52,764 nucleotides of DNA from Gemmatimonadales bacterium (GCA_025928645.1 JAICJD010000005.1:1-52764), one strand, 5' to 3'. Numbered from the stretch's first letter, positions 4,916 to 47,778 are shown. Numbers and translations: made by a program. Notes: generated by a model not told the origin, from the letters alone.

Positions 4916-6390
4916 CCCTCGACAGCCTTCGCAGTTTCATTCTCGAGATCGAACGCCTCGGCGAGCTCGTGCGGGTCGCGACGCCCGTGCGCGCGCGGCT
5001 CGAGATCGCGGAGATCGCCGACCGGTGCATGAAGAGTCCCGGCGGCGGTCCGGCCCTGGTGTTCGAGCACGTGCTGCTCGACGATGGACGGCGGAGCGCG
5101 CAGCCGGTGGCGATCAACCTGTTCGGGTCCATGCGCCGGATGTGCCTCGCGCTCGGCGTGGACGAGCTCGACGCGGTCGGCGCGCGCATCTCGGACCTGC
5201 TCAACCTGAAGGTGCCGGAGGGATTGTTCGGCAAGCTGGCGATGCTGCCCAAGCTCGCCGAGATGGGCAAGTTTCCGCCTCGGGTAAAAGGCGGCCGGGC
5301 ACCCTGCCAGGAGGTGGTCCTCCGGAACGAGGCCGTCAACCTCGACGAGCTTCCCTGTCTCACCACCTGGCCCGGCGACGCCGGCCGCTACATCACGCTC
5401 CCGATGGTGATCACGGCGGACCCGTCGCGCGGCATCCGCAACGTCGGCATGTACCGGATCCAGCTGCTGGACCGGAACCGGCTCGCCATGCACTGGCAGC
5501 GGCACAAGGTGGGCGCGGCCCACTGGCGCGAGATGGCGGAGAAGGGCGAGCGGATGCCGGTCGCCATCGCGCTTGGCGGCGATCCGGCCAGCATCTACGC
5601 CGCGTCCGCGCCGCTCCCGCCCACCATCGACGAGTTCCTCTTCGCGGGGTTCCTCCGGCGCGAGCCGGTCGAGCTGGTCCGCGCCGTCACCTGCGACCTC
5701 GAGGTGCCGGCCGAAGCCGAGCTCGTGCTCGAGGGCTACATCGATCCCGCGGAGCCGCTCGCGCTCGAGGGGCCCTTCGGCGACCACACCGGCTACTACT
5801 CGCTCGCGGACTACTATCCGATCGTCCACGTCACCGCCGTCACCGCCCGGCGTGATCCGATCTACCCCGCCACGCTCGTAGGCCGCCCGCCGATGGAGGA
5901 CTACTACCTGGGCCACGCCACCGAGCGGATCTTCCTGCCCCTGCTCAGGCTCACCGTCCCCGAGATCGTGGACTACCACATGCCTGCGGCGGGCATCTTC
6001 CACAACCTCGTGTTCGTCGCGATCGACAAGCAGTATCCCGGGCAGGCGTACAAGGTGATGAACGCCCTGTGGGGCCAGGGCCTGATGTCGCTCGCCAAGG
6101 TGCTCGTGATCGTGGACAAGCACGTGAACGTCCGCGATCCCGACGAGGCCTGGTGGATCGCGCTCAACAACATCGACCCGGAGCGGGACGTGCGCTTCAC
6201 GATGGGCCCGGTCGACGTGCTCGACCACGCGAGCCGCGCCTTCACCTTCGGGAGCAAGATGGGCATCGACGCGACCAGGAAGTGGAAAGAGGAAGGGTTC
6301 ACCCGGGAATGGCCCGATCTCATTCGGATGGACGACGAGACGAAGCGGCGAGTGGACGAGCTCTGGCCCCGGCTCGGGATCCGGCGGTGA
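4912..6390 (+). CDS. ubiD: UbiD-family decarboxylase
   Basis: GTG start overlapping the ubiE stop (GTGA); MVITADPSRGIRNVGMYRIQLLDRNRLAMHWQRHK..., EGPFGDHTGYYS. Confidence 0.93.
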   Translation: MTLDSLRSFILEIERLGELVRVATPVRARLEIAEIADRCMKSPGGGPALVFEHVLLDDGRRSAQPVAINLFGSMRRMCLALGVDELDAVGARISDLLNLKVPEGLFGKLAMLPKLAEMGKFPPRVKGGRAPCQEVVLRNEAVNLDELPCLTTWPGDAGRYITLPMVITADPSRGIRNVGMYRIQLLDRNRLAMHWQRHKVGAAHWREMAEKGERMPVAIALGGDPASIYAASAPLPPTIDEFLFAGFLRREPVELVRAVTCDLEVPAEAELVLEGYIDPAEPLALEGPFGDHTGYYSLADYYPIVHVTAVTARRDPIYPATLVGRPPMEDYYLGHATERIFLPLLRLTVPEIVDYHMPAAGIFHNLVFVAIDKQYPGQAYKVMNALWGQGLMSLAKVLVIVDKHVNVRDPDEAWWIALNNIDPERDVRFTMGPVDVLDHASRAFTFGSKMGIDATRKWKEEGFTREWPDLIRMDDETKRRVDELWPRLGIRR

Positions 6391-7295
6391 CGGCCCCGGG
6401 GCGCGAGGGGCAGACGTTCGGGGGCGAGTCGCTGCTCGTGCGCTACGTCAACTTCGTCAAGCTGCCTCATACGCTCTTCGCGCTGCCGTTCGCGCTCCTG
6501 GGCGTGCTCGCCGCCTCGCGGGTCGAGCGGGTCACGGCCCGCACCGTGCTCCTCGTCGTCGTGGCGTTCTCGGCGGCGCGCTGGGCCGCCATGGGGTTCA
6601 ATCGGGTCGCCGATCTCCGGTACGATGCGGCGAACCCGCGCACCCGCGGGCGCGAGCTGCCGCGCGGCGCGCTCTCCCTGGCCCAGGCGTGGGGATCCAT
6701 CGTCATGGCGGCCCTGCTGTTCCTGGCGGCAGCGGCGCTGCTCAATCCGCTGTGCCTTCGCCTCGGCCCGCTCGCTCTGGCGTGGGTCCTGGCTTACAGC
6801 CTGGCCAAGCGCTTCACCTGGTGGCCCCATCTCTGGCTGGGCCTGAGCCTGGCGATCGCGCCGGTCGGCGGCTACCTCGCGGTCACGGGGCGATGGAGCC
6901 ATCCCGCGTGGCTGCTCTTGGCGGTGACGCTCGCGGTGGCCACCTGGGTCGCCGGGTTCGACATCTTCTACGCCTTGCCCGACGCTGGCTTCGACCGCGC
7001 CCACGGCCTCCGGAGCGCCGTGGTGCGGCTGGGCGAGTCGCGCGCGATCCTCCTCGCCAAGGTCCTCCACGGCCTCACCATTCCCGCGCTCGCCCTGTTC
7101 GGCTGGGGGGCGGGCTTCGGCCTGTGGTACGTGCTCGGGCTGGTCGTGGCGGCCGGGATTCTCCTCTACGAGCACCGGCTCGTCCGCCCCGGCGACCTGA
7201 GCCGGCTCGACGCGGCATTCTTCACCATGAACGGCGTGATGTCCGTGACGGTGTTCGCCTTCGCGCTGGTGGACCGGCTGGCGGCCTCGGCGTGA
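6387..7295 (+). CDS. ubiA: UbiA-family prenyltransferase (MqnP/UbiA-like)
   Basis: GTG start overlapping the ubiD stop; NRVADLRYDAANPRTRGRELPRG, DIFYALPDAGFDRAHGLRSAVVRLG; polytopic. Confidence 0.92.
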   Translation: MTAPGREGQTFGGESLLVRYVNFVKLPHTLFALPFALLGVLAASRVERVTARTVLLVVVAFSAARWAAMGFNRVADLRYDAANPRTRGRELPRGALSLAQAWGSIVMAALLFLAAAALLNPLCLRLGPLALAWVLAYSLAKRFTWWPHLWLGLSLAIAPVGGYLAVTGRWSHPAWLLLAVTLAVATWVAGFDIFYALPDAGFDRAHGLRSAVVRLGESRAILLAKVLHGLTIPALALFGWGAGFGLWYVLGLVVAAGILLYEHRLVRPGDLSRLDAAFFTMNGVMSVTVFAFALVDRLAASA

Positions 7296-42764: not shown

Positions 42765-43603
42765 GGCTCGGAATGCCGCTGCGCCACCCGCTCGGCGACA
42801 TACGCGTCGGGCGGCGCGTTGGGCTTGATGCGGATGGACTTGGCGGGGATGCCCACGTTCACGTGGTAGGGCCGCACGTTCTTCGTGGCGACGGCCACCG
42901 CGCCCACCATCGCGTTGCGGCCGATCCGCACGCCCGCCAGCACCGTCGCGTGGTAGGTGATCCGCACGTCGTCCTCGAGCACGGTGCGCGCGTTGGTGAC
43001 GTCCTTCTGGTCCACGATGCTGTGGGTGTGGCTGTAGATGTTGGCGTAGTCCGAGATGCTCACCCGGTCACCGAGCGTGATCCCGCCGCGGTCGTCCAGC
43101 AGGACGTGGCGGTGGATCACGCAGTCGTCGCCCACCTCCAGGTTGTACCCGTAGGAGAACTCCACGAAGTGGAAGCACTTGAAATTGCGGCCTACGCGGG
43201 CGAACAGGTGCTTCGCGAGCACGCGACGGAAGCGCACGCCCAGGTGCACGTTGCCGCCGCCCGGAGGCGAGCGGTCGAAGCTCTGCCATAGCCAGTGCAG
43301 CGGCTTGACCCGCGCGTACCGCTCGGCGTCCACGTCGGCGTAGTACTCGGGCTCGAGCGTGACGTTGTGGGGATCGAGGCTCAACAGCGCGGCCCGGGCC
43401 GGGGCCGGAGTTGCGGGGTCGCTGACCCGCGCGTCGTAATCCGTGAGTCCCGGATACCAGAGCTGGACCAGCACGTCCCGCGTGATGCGGTACCAGTCGG
43501 CCCCCGGCTCAGCGAGACGCTCGTCCAGCTCGGCGAGCCAGGCATCGAACAGGCGCTCGGAGGGGTCGAGAACGGTGACGGTCCGGAGCGGGAGATAGGC
43601 CAT
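42761..43603 (-). CDS. Left-handed beta-helix acyltransferase (CysE/LacA/WbbJ superfamily)
   Basis: DDCVIHRHVLLDDRGGITLGDRVSISDYANIYSHTHSI, ITYHATVLAGVRIGRNAMVGAVAVATKNVRPYHVNVGIPAKSIR. Confidence 0.88.
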   Translation of the reverse strand: MAYLPLRTVTVLDPSERLFDAWLAELDERLAEPGADWYRITRDVLVQLWYPGLTDYDARVSDPATPAPARAALLSLDPHNVTLEPEYYADVDAERYARVKPLHWLWQSFDRSPPGGGNVHLGVRFRRVLAKHLFARVGRNFKCFHFVEFSYGYNLEVGDDCVIHRHVLLDDRGGITLGDRVSISDYANIYSHTHSIVDQKDVTNARTVLEDDVRITYHATVLAGVRIGRNAMVGAVAVATKNVRPYHVNVGIPAKSIRIKPNAPPDAYVAERVAQRHSEP

Positions 43604-43716
43604 CGAGGAGCCTCGCGGGGGCCGGGCGACGGGGTGGAAGCGGTGTGTGCTCAATGATGTGCGGGGTGTGCGGTTGACACCAGTGGGAATGGGGAATAGA
43701 GTAGTAGGGTTCCGCA

Positions 43717-43731
43717 TGAAAACCATTCTCA
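43717..43731. promoter_or_regulatory. Candidate Fur box
   Basis: TGAAAACCATTCTCA matches the 7-1-7 palindrome TGATAATnATTATCA at 11 of 14 positions, in an AT-rich patch 20 nt before the porin start. Confidence 0.6.
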
Positions 43732-43751
43732 ACTAGTTTGCTAAAGGTGAT

Positions 43752-44897
43752 ATGCGCTCCCTTCGCCCTCTGGCTGTCGCCCTGCTGGCCATTCCCCTCT
43801 TCCCCTTGACCGAGCTTCCGGGCACCTCCGTCGCCGCCCAAGAGGAGGAGCGCACCACCGTGGGCGGCTACGGCGAGGTGCACTACACCAACCTCTCCGG
43901 CGCTGAGACGCCCGGCAGCGTGAACGTCGCGCGGTTCGTCGCCTATCTCGCCCACAGCTTCAACGAGCGGCTCTCCCTGCGCTCCGAGCTCGAGGTCGAA
44001 GACGCCAAGATCGAAGGCGGGGAGGAGGGCGGCGAGGTTTCCGTGGAACAGGTCTACCTGGACTACATGCTGTCGCCGGCCGCGACCATTCGCGCCGGCC
44101 TGGTGCTCCCGCCGGTCGGCATCGTCAACGAGACTCACGAGCCCACCACCTTCAACGGCGTCGACCGGCCGGGCTTCGACCACGACGTGATCCCGACGAC
44201 CTGGCGCGACATCGGCGTGGGCCTCGTCGGCAGCCTGCCGGGCGGCTCGGGTCTCAGCTATCGCGTGTATCTGCTCAACGGCCTCGTGGCGAGCGGGTTC
44301 TCCGGGGAGGAGGGCATTCGCGAGGGACGCCAGGAAGGCTCGAATGCGACCTTCGCCAACCCGTCGCTCACGGGCCGGCTCGAGTGGACCCGTCCCGGGC
44401 TCACGGTGGGCGGATCCTTCTGGTACGGCGGAAGCGCGGCGCAGGATCCCGCGCTCGGCACCGGCACGTTCGACAACCCGGTCGCCGTCGTCTCGGCGGA
44501 CGCGCGGTACGATACCGGTCCCTTTATGTTCCGGGGCGTCGTCGCCAACGTGAGCATCTCCGACGCCGGCGCGATCAATCAGGCCTACGGCGGCCAGGTG
44601 GGGAGCCGGATCGCGGGCGGGTACGTCGAGGGCGCCTACAACCTGCTCTCCGCGCTGGCGCCGCAGTCCACCCAGCGGCTGCTGGGCTTCGTGCGCTACG
44701 AGCGGTACAACACGCAGGCGGGCGTGCCCGACGGCCTCGTGCGCGACGACGCGTTCGCGCGGCGCACGACCACCTTCGGGCTCACCTACAAGCCGGTCTA
44801 CAACGTGGTCTTCAAGGGCGACTACCAGCTGCGCCGGAACCGCGCGGGTGTCGGACAGGACGAGCAGCTGGCGCTGGGGGTGGGCTATCAGTTCTAG
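43752..44897 (+). CDS. Outer-membrane porin-like beta-barrel protein
   Basis: Signal peptide; VGGYGEVHYTNLSG...VNVARFVAYLAHSFNERLSLRSELEVEDAKIEG; terminal YQLRRNRAGVGQDEQLALGVGYQF. Confidence 0.82.
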   Translation: MRSLRPLAVALLAIPLFPLTELPGTSVAAQEEERTTVGGYGEVHYTNLSGAETPGSVNVARFVAYLAHSFNERLSLRSELEVEDAKIEGGEEGGEVSVEQVYLDYMLSPAATIRAGLVLPPVGIVNETHEPTTFNGVDRPGFDHDVIPTTWRDIGVGLVGSLPGGSGLSYRVYLLNGLVASGFSGEEGIREGRQEGSNATFANPSLTGRLEWTRPGLTVGGSFWYGGSAAQDPALGTGTFDNPVAVVSADARYDTGPFMFRGVVANVSISDAGAINQAYGGQVGSRIAGGYVEGAYNLLSALAPQSTQRLLGFVRYERYNTQAGVPDGLVRDDAFARRTTTFGLTYKPVYNVVFKGDYQLRRNRAGVGQDEQLALGVGYQF

Positions 44898-44914
44898 GCG
44901 CGGCGTGGGTGCAC

Positions 44915-45015
44915 CTTCATCCCGAGCGGAGCGAGAGACCTGCTTGTCAGGATCGGGACTTCACCGCGAGCGCACGAGAAGGCGGAGCAGGTCCCTCGCT
45001 CCGCTCGGGATGAAG
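44915..45015. repeat. REP/MITE-like palindromic repeat, copy 2
   Basis: CTTCATCCCGAGCGGAGCGAGAGACC (44915-44940) vs GGTCCCTCGCTCCGCTCGGGATGAAG (44990-45015). Confidence 0.85.
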
Positions 45016-45063
45016 TGGGCCCCCGGGATGCAGTGGGCCCCCGGGATGAGGAGGGCGCTCGGC
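45010..45063 (+). repeat. 18-nt tandem repeat at the 5' end of the FMN-binding CDS
   Basis: ATGAAGTGGGCCCCCGGG / ATGCAGTGGGCCCCCGGG / ATGAGGAGGGCGCTCGGC / ATGGCC; each unit supplies an in-frame ATG. Confidence 0.85.
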
Positions 45064-45540
45064 ATGGCCTGCGTGCTCGCCGCTGCGCTCATCGCAACCG
45101 CCGCCGCGCAGTCCGCCCCGCCCGACAAGCTGGCCAAATCGATCGAGCGGATCTACGGCCCGGGTACCCGGGTCGACACGCTGCACGTGGACACCAGCAC
45201 GGTCTACCGTCTCTCGCGCGGCGGCGCCCTGCTCGGATTCGCCCAGGTCCGAAACGTCAAGGGAAAGGACCAGCCCATCACGTATCTGGTGGCGATCGAC
45301 TCCGCCGACGCGCTGCGCGACGTCGACATCCTGGTCTACCGCGAGCCACACGGCGGCGAGGTGGCCTACGAGCCGTGGCGGAAGCAGTTCCGCGGCAAGA
45401 AGAGCGACGCGCCGCTCCAGGTGGGCAAGGACATCAAGAACATCTCGGGCGCCACCATCAGCTCCAACTCGGTGACCCGCGGCGTTCGCCAGACGCTGGC
45501 GGACCTGACCGCCTGGCACGCCGCCGGAAAGATCCGGTGA
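45064..45540 (+). CDS. Secreted FMN-binding domain protein (flavinylation substrate); start may be 45010, 45028 or 45046
   Basis: Signal peptide MACVLAAALIATAAAQ; flavinylation motif SGATISS in VGKDIKNISGATISSNSVTRGVRQTL. Confidence 0.85.
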   Translation: MACVLAAALIATAAAQSAPPDKLAKSIERIYGPGTRVDTLHVDTSTVYRLSRGGALLGFAQVRNVKGKDQPITYLVAIDSADALRDVDILVYREPHGGEVAYEPWRKQFRGKKSDAPLQVGKDIKNISGATISSNSVTRGVRQTLADLTAWHAAGKIR

Positions 45541-46061
45541 GCAAGGCCGGGCCGAGCTGGCGGACGCTGTCGCCCAGCCTTCGCGCGCTCGGCCTCTGGG
45601 TCACGATCGTCCAGGTCGTAGGCTACACCACGAGCCTCCTGTTCATCCACCACACGACGGGGATGACGCTAGCTGGCGTCGCCGAGCAGTACCGCGGCGG
45701 CGACTCCACCGCCGCGACCGGCGCGGCGATGAAGTTCCCCAAGTCGTACGCGGAGATGCTCACGATCACGCACACGCACCTGTTCAGCATGGCCGCCATC
45801 TTCGTGTTCAGCGGCCTGGCGCTCGCGCTCTGCGAGCGGCCGGGGCCGCGCTGGCGCACGGTGCTCATCGTCGAGCCGTTCGCGGCGCTGCTCGTTTCGT
45901 TTTCGTCCATGTGGCTCATGTGGGGCGTCGACCCGCGCTTCAGCTGGCTGCTCACGCTCTCGAGCGGCCTCATGGCGCTCACGTTCTACGCCCAGTCGTT
46001 CTGGACCTTCCGCGAGCTGATCGGGCTGCGCCGCGCCGGGCGGGTCGGGAGCGGCGGGTGA
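45537..46061 (+). CDS. Four-TM membrane protein of unknown function with His-rich TM edges
   Basis: LLFIHHTTGMTL, MLTITHTHLFSMAAIFVFSGLALAL, LLVSFSSMWLMWG; GTGA overlap with both neighbours. Confidence 0.8.
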   Translation: MSKAGPSWRTLSPSLRALGLWVTIVQVVGYTTSLLFIHHTTGMTLAGVAEQYRGGDSTAATGAAMKFPKSYAEMLTITHTHLFSMAAIFVFSGLALALCERPGPRWRTVLIVEPFAALLVSFSSMWLMWGVDPRFSWLLTLSSGLMALTFYAQSFWTFRELIGLRRAGRVGSGG

Positions 46062-47017
46062 ACCGGCGCGAGTTCGTCGGGGCGCTGGGTGGTCTGGTGG
46101 CCGGCGTCACCGTGCCCGAGCAACTGCTCGCTGCGCGCGCGGGCCGGAGTGCGGCCGGCGACGTCCTCGTGGAGCGCTGGTCGTGGGCGATGGGACAGCC
46201 GGTGCACCTGCGGCTCTTCGCCGCGTCCGAGGCCCGCGGCTACGAGATCGCGCAGGCCGCACTGGCCGAGATCCGGCGGGTCGAAACGGTGCTCACGCGG
46301 TTCGACGAGGCCAGCGACCTTTCCGCCCTGAATCGCGCCGCCGGCGCCGGCCCGCGCGAGGTCGGGCCCGACCTCGCGGCGGTGCTTGCGGCCGGCGAGC
46401 GGTTCCGCGCCGATACCGGAGGCGCCTTCGACCCCGCGATCGAGCCGCTGATGCGGGCCTGGGGCTTCCACGCCGCCCGCACGGTCGCGCCGAGCCCGGC
46501 GGAGCTGGCCGAAGCGCGCGCCGCGGTGCGCGCCGCGACGGTGCGGGTCGCGGGCCGGACCGTGGCGCTCGGCAGCACGACGACGCAGCTCGATCTCGGC
46601 GGAATCGGGGTGGGCTACGGGCTCGACCGGATGGCCGGGGTGCTCCGGCGGGCCGGCATCCGTCGCGCGTTCATCGATGTGAGCGGGGATTGTCTGGCGC
46701 TCGGCGCGCCGCCGGGCGCGCGCGGATGGCTGGTCGAGGTCGCCGACCCGGCCGAGCCGCGGCGGGTGATCGGCGGGCTCAGGCTGCGCGATGCGGCGCT
46801 CGCCACATCATCCAACACGGAGTCGGTGGTGCGGTGGGGGCGCGCGCTCCGGGGGCACGTGATGGACCCGTCGACCGGCTATCCGGCGTCCGCGCTGGTG
46901 CAGGCCACCGTGGTGGCATGGTCCGGCATCGAGGCCGACGCGCTGTCCACGGCGATGCTCGTATCGGGCCGGGCTCCGGCGGCGGCGTTGCAAACGTTCC
47001 CGGTGGCGGGGCGGTAG
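46058..47017 (+). CDS. apbE: FAD:protein FMN transferase
   Basis: MGQPVHLRLFA, RRVETVLTRFDEASDLSALNRAAG, TQLDLGGIGVGYGLDRM, TSSNTESVVRW...HVMDPSTGYPA, EADALSTAMLV; NRREFVG Tat-like N-terminus. Confidence 0.93.
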   Translation: MNRREFVGALGGLVAGVTVPEQLLAARAGRSAAGDVLVERWSWAMGQPVHLRLFAASEARGYEIAQAALAEIRRVETVLTRFDEASDLSALNRAAGAGPREVGPDLAAVLAAGERFRADTGGAFDPAIEPLMRAWGFHAARTVAPSPAELAEARAAVRAATVRVAGRTVALGSTTTQLDLGGIGVGYGLDRMAGVLRRAGIRRAFIDVSGDCLALGAPPGARGWLVEVADPAEPRRVIGGLRLRDAALATSSNTESVVRWGRALRGHVMDPSTGYPASALVQATVVAWSGIEADALSTAMLVSGRAPAAALQTFPVAGR

Positions 47018-47130
47018 TCGCTGGGATGGCGGCCGGGGGTCACCCAGCGCGAAGCGGAAGGGGGGCTGGGGTGGGGCAAGGCCCCATTAGCTTAGCGCAG
47101 GGTGACTCCAACGGTCGACGTGTCCCGTGT

Positions 47131-47778
47131 CTAGCGCGCGCTGTCCCGCGCCGTCGAGTCCATCGCCTTCCCGCGCTCGCGCGAGGCCACCCGCGCGCGC
47201 TCGCGGTCGAGCGTCCGCTGCTTCCCCTGCCAGTCGTCCGAGGTGAGTCCCGCGTACAGCACCGTGAACGAATCGTTCACCGGCAGATCTTCCTCGAACA
47301 GGAAGATGGCGCTCACCTGCTCTCGCACGTTGAGCTGCTGCGACGTGAAGCGGCCGCTGAACGGGACGATGCCCAGCGGACGGAACTCGCGGTTCCGCAC
47401 CATGACCGTGAGGGTCTGCGGGTCGAACCGCGCGTTGGGCCGCTGCCCGAAGAAGGTCACCAGCGCGAGGCCCGGCCGGGAGACACCGGCGGAGTTGGCG
47501 ACCGAGTCGATGGCGGCCCGGCGGGACTCGACCAGCGAGCGGAGCGACGACCAGCTGTCCGGCGCGAGCAGCCGGGTCACCCGAGCGTCGAGCGGCACGA
47601 ACCGGACCTCGATGTCTGGCGTGCGGAGCCGGAGCGAGAGGTCGTTCTGGGTGAGCGAGCCGTACCCCGCGGGCATCGTGGCCAGGGCGCCGCTCGTGGC
47701 CTGAGCGGAGGCGGCCCGGCCGGCGCACAGCGCGGCCGGGACGAACAGCAGGGACCACATCCTGCGCGAGACCTTCAT
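47131..47778 (-). CDS. Secreted hypothetical protein
   Basis: Signal peptide [26 protein letters not shown]; 4-nt overlap with engB. Confidence 0.65.
   Translation of the reverse strand: MKVSRRMWSLLFVPAALCAGRAASAQATSGALATMPAGYGSLTQNDLSLRLRTPDIEVRFVPLDARVTRLLAPDSWSSLRSLVESRRAAIDSVANSAGVSRPGLALVTFFGQRPNARFDPQTLTVMVRNREFRPLGIVPFSGRFTSQQLNVREQVSAIFLFEEDLPVNDSFTVLYAGLTSDDWQGKQRTLDRERARVASRERGKAMDSTARDSAR

Follow-up and report, generated by a model that had tools for sequence, protein, structure and literature searches.

A Fur-box-preceded porin, FMN_bind, four-helix membrane protein and ApbE operon in a Gemmatimonadales bacterium: a candidate extracytosolic iron(III) reductase

Results

Structure of the locus

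The DNA analysed here (the window) is a 52,764-nt stretch from a Gemmatimonadales bacterium whose draft genome is 97% complete; all evidence given below is computational. Region 43674–47017 of the window contains a sigma-70-like promoter and a Fur-like palindrome, followed by four genes on the plus strand, the third of which encodes a protein with four transmembrane helices (4-TM). The features are as follows.

43674–43702, plus strand: sigma-70-like promoter TTGACA-17-TAGAGT, the sole promoter-like site in 43300–47400
43717–43731, strand not assigned: Fur-box-like operator TGAAAACCATTCTCA, a palindrome match that recurs in relatives
43752–44897, plus strand: predicted outer-membrane porin, 381 aa, with signal peptide and a 16-strand barrel model (AlphaFold2 and fold matches)
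44917–45013, strand not assigned: dispersed palindromic (REP-like) repeat between the porin and FMN_bind genes (hairpin and genome copies)
45010–45540, plus strand: secreted FMN_bind protein, predicted ApbE substrate (PF04205, 1.5e-9); the start is possibly the ATG at 45046
45445–45456, plus strand: SGAT motif, residues 146–149, with Thr149 as the predicted FMN attachment residue (alignment)
45537–46061, plus strand: 4-TM inner-membrane protein, 174 aa, of an unnamed family (no family match)
45771–45779, plus strand: HxH motif (His79 and His81) of the 4-TM protein (homologue alignment)
46058–47017, plus strand: ApbE, FAD:protein FMN transferase, with a Tat-like N-terminus (NRREF) (PF02424, 1.2e-63)

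An earlier note on this DNA had described four same-strand genes behind a Fur-like palindrome, and every part of that description was found in place. The 4-nt stop/start overlaps that it reported among the last three genes are real, both the FMN_bind/4-TM and the 4-TM/ApbE junctions being GTGA overlaps. An independent promoter parting the porin from the later genes was looked for in 43300–47400, and none was found besides the one sigma-70-like site ahead of the palindrome. A TTGACA-like −35 element and an AT-rich −10 element also lie upstream of the cassette in close relatives (e.g., loci L017, L018 and L019).

The spacer between the porin and FMN_bind genes contains a dispersed palindromic repeat that was absent from the earlier note. 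Its hairpin has a z-score of −5.6, its 19-nt arm TCATCCCGAGCGGAGCGAG is present in 24 genomic copies, many of them in inverted pairs 62–78 nt apart, and the element ends at the alternative ATG starts of the FMN_bind gene.

Porin, flavoprotein and ApbE

The porin had no Pfam match. Its AlphaFold2 model (pLDDT 82) has 16 strands, the best fold matches in the PDB are porins of the OmpF/OmpC type (E about 2e-13), and the sequence combines a signal peptide with the C-terminus GVGYQF, ending in Phe, so that the model agrees with the outer-membrane barrel proposed before and with the features predicted for a general outer-membrane porin. The segment after strand 5 (about residues 119–152) is long and highly conserved, which suggests a selective constriction.

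The second gene product was expected to be a secreted FMN-binding protein with a flavinylation motif, served by ApbE, and the domain matches bear this out. It has, besides PF04205, weak similarity to rnfG/nqrC, and its SGAT motif lies behind a signal-like N-terminus, as in exported substrates of ApbE. The GAT core of the motif is invariant across 13 aligned FMN_bind proteins, and [STD]GA[ST] is present in 27 of the 31 Bacteroidota homologues. ApbE is encoded beside this predicted substrate, next to the FMN_bind and 4-TM genes, and the cassette carries the sole FMN_bind protein and the sole ApbE of the host genome, which agrees with a dedicated set. On the motif and its context, the FMN_bind protein is predicted to receive FMN from ApbE on Thr149.

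In two relatives (L029, 550–1635, and L030, 5120–6169) FMN_bind carries a second 4-TM domain as an N-terminal fusion. As read from the sequence, this fusion supports the view that a 4-TM domain and the flavoprotein are direct partners. In L028 the second 4-TM-like domain is a separate gene (positions 6360–7000 of the reverse complement), suggesting a pair of 4-TM proteins in some lineages.

Conservation of the gene set

The search with the 4-TM protein gave matches in 15 of 298 Gemmatimonadota genomes. The window, the loci from this search and four more loci from genome contigs make up 19 cassettes, and the neighbourhood conservation expected across the phylum was borne out: the porin, FMN_bind, 4-TM and ApbE genes are kept in all 19 (the contig of L029 ends before ApbE), in the same order even in distant families at 25–35% identity. 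In L025 and L026 (also in L042 and L044; two draft genomes) the reading frame of the 4-TM gene is interrupted at G-rich runs, and these breaks are probably assembly errors.

In L043, a Bacteroidetes MAG, the porin is divergently transcribed and the remaining genes are intact. When the phylum of this MAG was searched with a profile, 33 of 346 genomes proved to encode the 4-TM family. Of the 31 loci that the 4-TM protein retrieved from Bacteroidota, all 31 have FMN_bind alongside, 29 contain the porin, and 13 carry ApbE within the cluster; in the genomes whose cluster has none, ApbE may be encoded elsewhere. Roughly one in ten of the Bacteroidota and Gemmatimonadota genomes sampled carries the family, where the Gemmatimonadota figure counts distant paralogues. 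No 4-TM homologue was found in plasmid records.

These counts bear on the simplest alternative, that the palindrome and the porin are chance neighbours unrelated to the FMN_bind, 4-TM and ApbE genes. The repeat that parts the porin from FMN_bind in the host genome and the divergent porin of L043 would fit such a reading, but the porin is linked in 19/19 Gemmatimonadota and 29/31 Bacteroidota loci, and its gene nearly touches FMN_bind in several relatives (a gap of about 1–4 nt). We consider a chance arrangement highly improbable.

Fur-like operator and putative iron regulon

The operator TGAAAACCATTCTCA is one mismatch from TGANAATNATTNTCA, and 0.03 matches with at most two mismatches are expected in the 52,764-nt window. 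It starts 15 nt past the −10 hexamer of the promoter. A Fur box precedes 15 of the 19 Gemmatimonadota cassettes, distant families included, roughly 20–80 nt before the porin start, and in the 14 cassettes that the first scan recovered, none of the shuffled versions of that region scored as high.

Species genomes were scanned with strict DNA patterns, the genome scans being sampled from two phyla. The pattern TGANAANNNTTNTCA has two sites in the host genome, and the reversed control pattern has none. The second site overlaps the start of a gene for a 717-aa fusion of cytochrome c and the FTR1 iron permease (PF03239, 6e-25; L112:2318–4471, contig C125 of host genome G000). Since it overlaps the FTR1 start codon, this box is in part coding sequence. 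The FTR1 homologue again has a Fur-like site at its start in five relatives (G227, G008, G154, G261 and G103), the last of which has a further site directly before feoB. The host genome encodes one Fur protein above the family cut-off.

The earlier note had proposed iron control and had looked to further copies of the palindrome as a sign of a Fur regulon. Both points gain from these data, as the box recurs in 15 of the 19 cassettes and its only other copy in the host genome is at an iron permease gene. At the level of sequence, the operon has a 7-1-7 Fur-like operator at its promoter that is common to other iron genes, as expected of a member of a Fur regulon.

No convincing FeoB was found among the PF02421 matches of the 97% complete host genome. 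The best of these matches scored 40 bits against about 170–200 bits for true FeoB and was rejected; the weak matches look like generic GTPases, one being an EngB-like gene within the window. In Bacteroidota, the cassette has FeoB as a neighbour in three loci (L093, L107 and L108); a FUR gene adjoins it in L079 and ferritin does so in L103. A link to ferrous-iron uptake is supported, with FTR1 in the host and FeoB, FUR or ferritin genes in relatives. Upstream of the Bacteroidota cassettes, footprinting for a Fur box gave no signal that exceeded shuffled sequence; the A+T-rich composition of these regions or a different Fur consensus may account for this result, and we counted it neither way.

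The recurrence of the FTR1-shared operator and of the FeoB, FUR and ferritin neighbours in two phyla also weighs against an iron-induced redox system with a periplasmic or extracellular acceptor other than iron(III) for uptake, such as a respiratory substitute, thiol or methionine-sulfoxide repair, or oxygen detoxification. Flavinylated systems do serve many acceptors (PMC8238504), and a protein with a SelR (MsrB) domain was confirmed near the cassette in L080, with similar ones clustering in L081–L083, an arrangement that recalls MsrPQ. The MsrB link is limited to these four similar loci, and we regard another acceptor as quite unlikely.

As to the MsrB (SelR)-like genes of L080–L083 themselves, several are apparently exported, and their products are a possible alternative electron acceptor there; a common MsrB role was set aside, given this restriction.

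The 4-TM protein and its paralogues

The 4-TM protein was described at the outset as unassigned, and it has stayed so: the search with 37 members of the family matched no Pfam or NCBIfam family above cut-off, no relative was found among PDB sequences, and the AlphaFold2 model (pLDDT 88) had no fold match in the PDB. Pfam scans of the 37 homologues gave no match to MsrQ, PepSY or DUF4405. A sub-threshold match of the b561 type was obtained for two members, the best at 0.00038 (cytochrome b561, L030). Matches of single members to DUF998, DUF5336 and TruB_C were below cut-off and were dismissed.

The picture for the histidines proposed at the membrane edges is mixed. His79 and His81 in helix 2 are the sole invariant residues of the family, in 44 of 44 homologues and also in the 37-member alignment, while His38 and His39 near the end of helix 1 are not conserved. 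The charge distribution suggests that both ends of the protein are cytoplasmic, and we therefore infer that HxH lies at the periplasmic edge of helix 2.

A deeper search revealed a distant 4-TM homologue in the host genome (contig C120) and others elsewhere. In the host it forms a pair with a BBP2 porin (L178:7147–9141), keeps HxH and is accompanied by no ApbE; no strict-pattern Fur box was found upstream of this pair.

The distant paralogues lie behind a porin-like gene in five of the five loci examined, and the three porins scanned match PF07642. In three loci (L179, L181 and L182) the paralogue is followed by a periplasmic protein without an SGAT site that is related to FMN_bind (hhalign 95.8%, E 8e-9); in the host genome and in G008 an FMN_bind-like gene is absent downstream. 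The earlier note would have counted 4-TM homologues without ApbE/FMN_bind neighbours against its reading, and to a degree these exist: distant paralogues occur without ApbE, the host one beside a porin only; elsewhere an FMN_bind-like neighbour is kept, though without SGAT. Because these paralogues stand beside a porin without ApbE, the pairing of porin and 4-TM protein is independent of flavinylation. This weakens a strict reading of the 4-TM protein as electron donor to FMN, and not the module as such.

Such paralogues, found with a porin and without a flavinylated partner, would also suit a 4-TM protein that is an inner-membrane metal (Fe2+) permease or an anchor for the porin and flavoprotein, with the electrons of the flavin coming from another carrier. 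HxH at the periplasmic edge could hold a metal ion, and no match to a heme-protein family was above cut-off. Yet iron permeases are encoded separately, with FTR1 in the regulon and FeoB adjacent in three loci, and the cassettes encode no other membrane electron carrier. On this balance we think a permease or anchor unlikely.

Discussion

We favour, as moderately probable, a reading of the operon as a Fur-repressed extracytosolic iron(III) reductase whose flavoprotein provides Fe(II) to the co-regulated cytochrome c-FTR1 permease. The gene set, the operon, the flavinylation motif, the operator, the FTR1 co-regulation site and the conservation from which it starts are established at the level of sequence.

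The steps can be pictured as follows. At low iron, Fur, as the presumed repressor, would leave the operator. The porin would pass small ferric complexes or a small redox partner across the outer membrane, and Thr149 of the FMN_bind protein in the periplasm would receive its FMN from ApbE. The 4-TM protein would draw electrons, most likely from menaquinol at the periplasmic face, and a heme or metal on the invariant HxH may relay them to the flavin. The reduced flavoprotein would then yield Fe(II), with iron(III) as the putative acceptor, and Fe(II) would be imported by the cytochrome c-FTR1 permease encoded elsewhere.

Several observations speak against the reductase reading. The distant 4-TM paralogues beside a porin without ApbE, one of them in the host genome, mean that the role of the 4-TM protein may not be tied to flavin. 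The two histidines of HxH are two residues apart in one helix, and a single chain cannot easily ligate one heme with them. No Fur box was detected before the Bacteroidota cassettes, and the Pfam scans gave no match to known flavinylation-associated cytochromes (DUF4405, MsrQ, PepSY). The FTR1 box of the host genome, moreover, is in part coding sequence.

The closest published relatives of the operon are the flavinylated extracytosolic systems, with MsrQ-like, PepSY-like, DUF4405, NapH-like, DsbD and NQR/RNF-like classes (PMC8238504, PMC11334425), of which DUF4405, MsrQ-like and PepSY-like membrane partners are named in PMC11334425. They share with it ApbE, a secreted SGAT FMN_bind protein, a membrane protein in the same operon and an iron-assimilation context. 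The operon differs in its 4-TM HxH family, which had no Pfam match above cut-off and is none of the membrane classes that the two papers name in their main text, and in the dedicated 16-strand porin of the conserved set; the word porin is absent from both main texts, and their supplementary tables may list such a cluster. Literature searches on systems that combine porin, ApbE and iron, or on ApbE under iron limitation, returned no description of the four-gene set.

FMN_bind proteins have been linked with the FTR1/P19 and VIT1 iron transporters (PMC8238504). As in the P19/FTR1 clusters, FMN_bind is here paired with an FTR1 iron permease, and a periplasmic redox step likely precedes uptake. The pairing here is through a shared Fur-like operator and not within one cluster, FTR1 is fused to cytochrome c, and the published clusters are mostly Gram-positive (PMC8238504).

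The DUF4405 and FezC cytochromes (PMC11334425) are likewise small membrane proteins tied to flavinylation or iron, and the heme sites of FezC are proposed to form by homodimerisation (PMC11334425); by analogy, the 4-TM HxH protein would need homodimerisation for heme sites. It differs in having no sequence match in the Pfam scans, and its heme binding is putative. With RnfG/NqrC the flavoprotein shares the FMN_bind fold, the covalent FMN motif and weak profile matches, which are far below the family cut-offs; the host genome has no other FMN_bind protein.

A broader proposal, which we put forward tentatively and hold to be possible, is that the HxH 4-TM protein represents a new transmembrane redox family, carrying electrons from quinol to periplasmic flavin and widespread in Bacteroidota and Gemmatimonadota. 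Together with the dedicated porin it would form an unrecognised envelope-spanning iron-reduction module with two branches, one flavinylated and Fur-controlled, the other a porin/4-TM pair without flavinylation.

In published surveys, no characterized electron-transfer system was found in about half of the genomes that carry ApbE machinery (PMC11334425). To this field the operon contributes a candidate membrane family, which has one motif open to test, and an outer-membrane component that is conserved. The four-gene set, which recurs unnamed in many other bacteria, most likely turns ferric into absorbable ferrous iron outside the cell, and the Fur/FTR1 link gives it a concrete role to test, the supply of ferrous iron in soil Gram-negatives apparently without FeoB.
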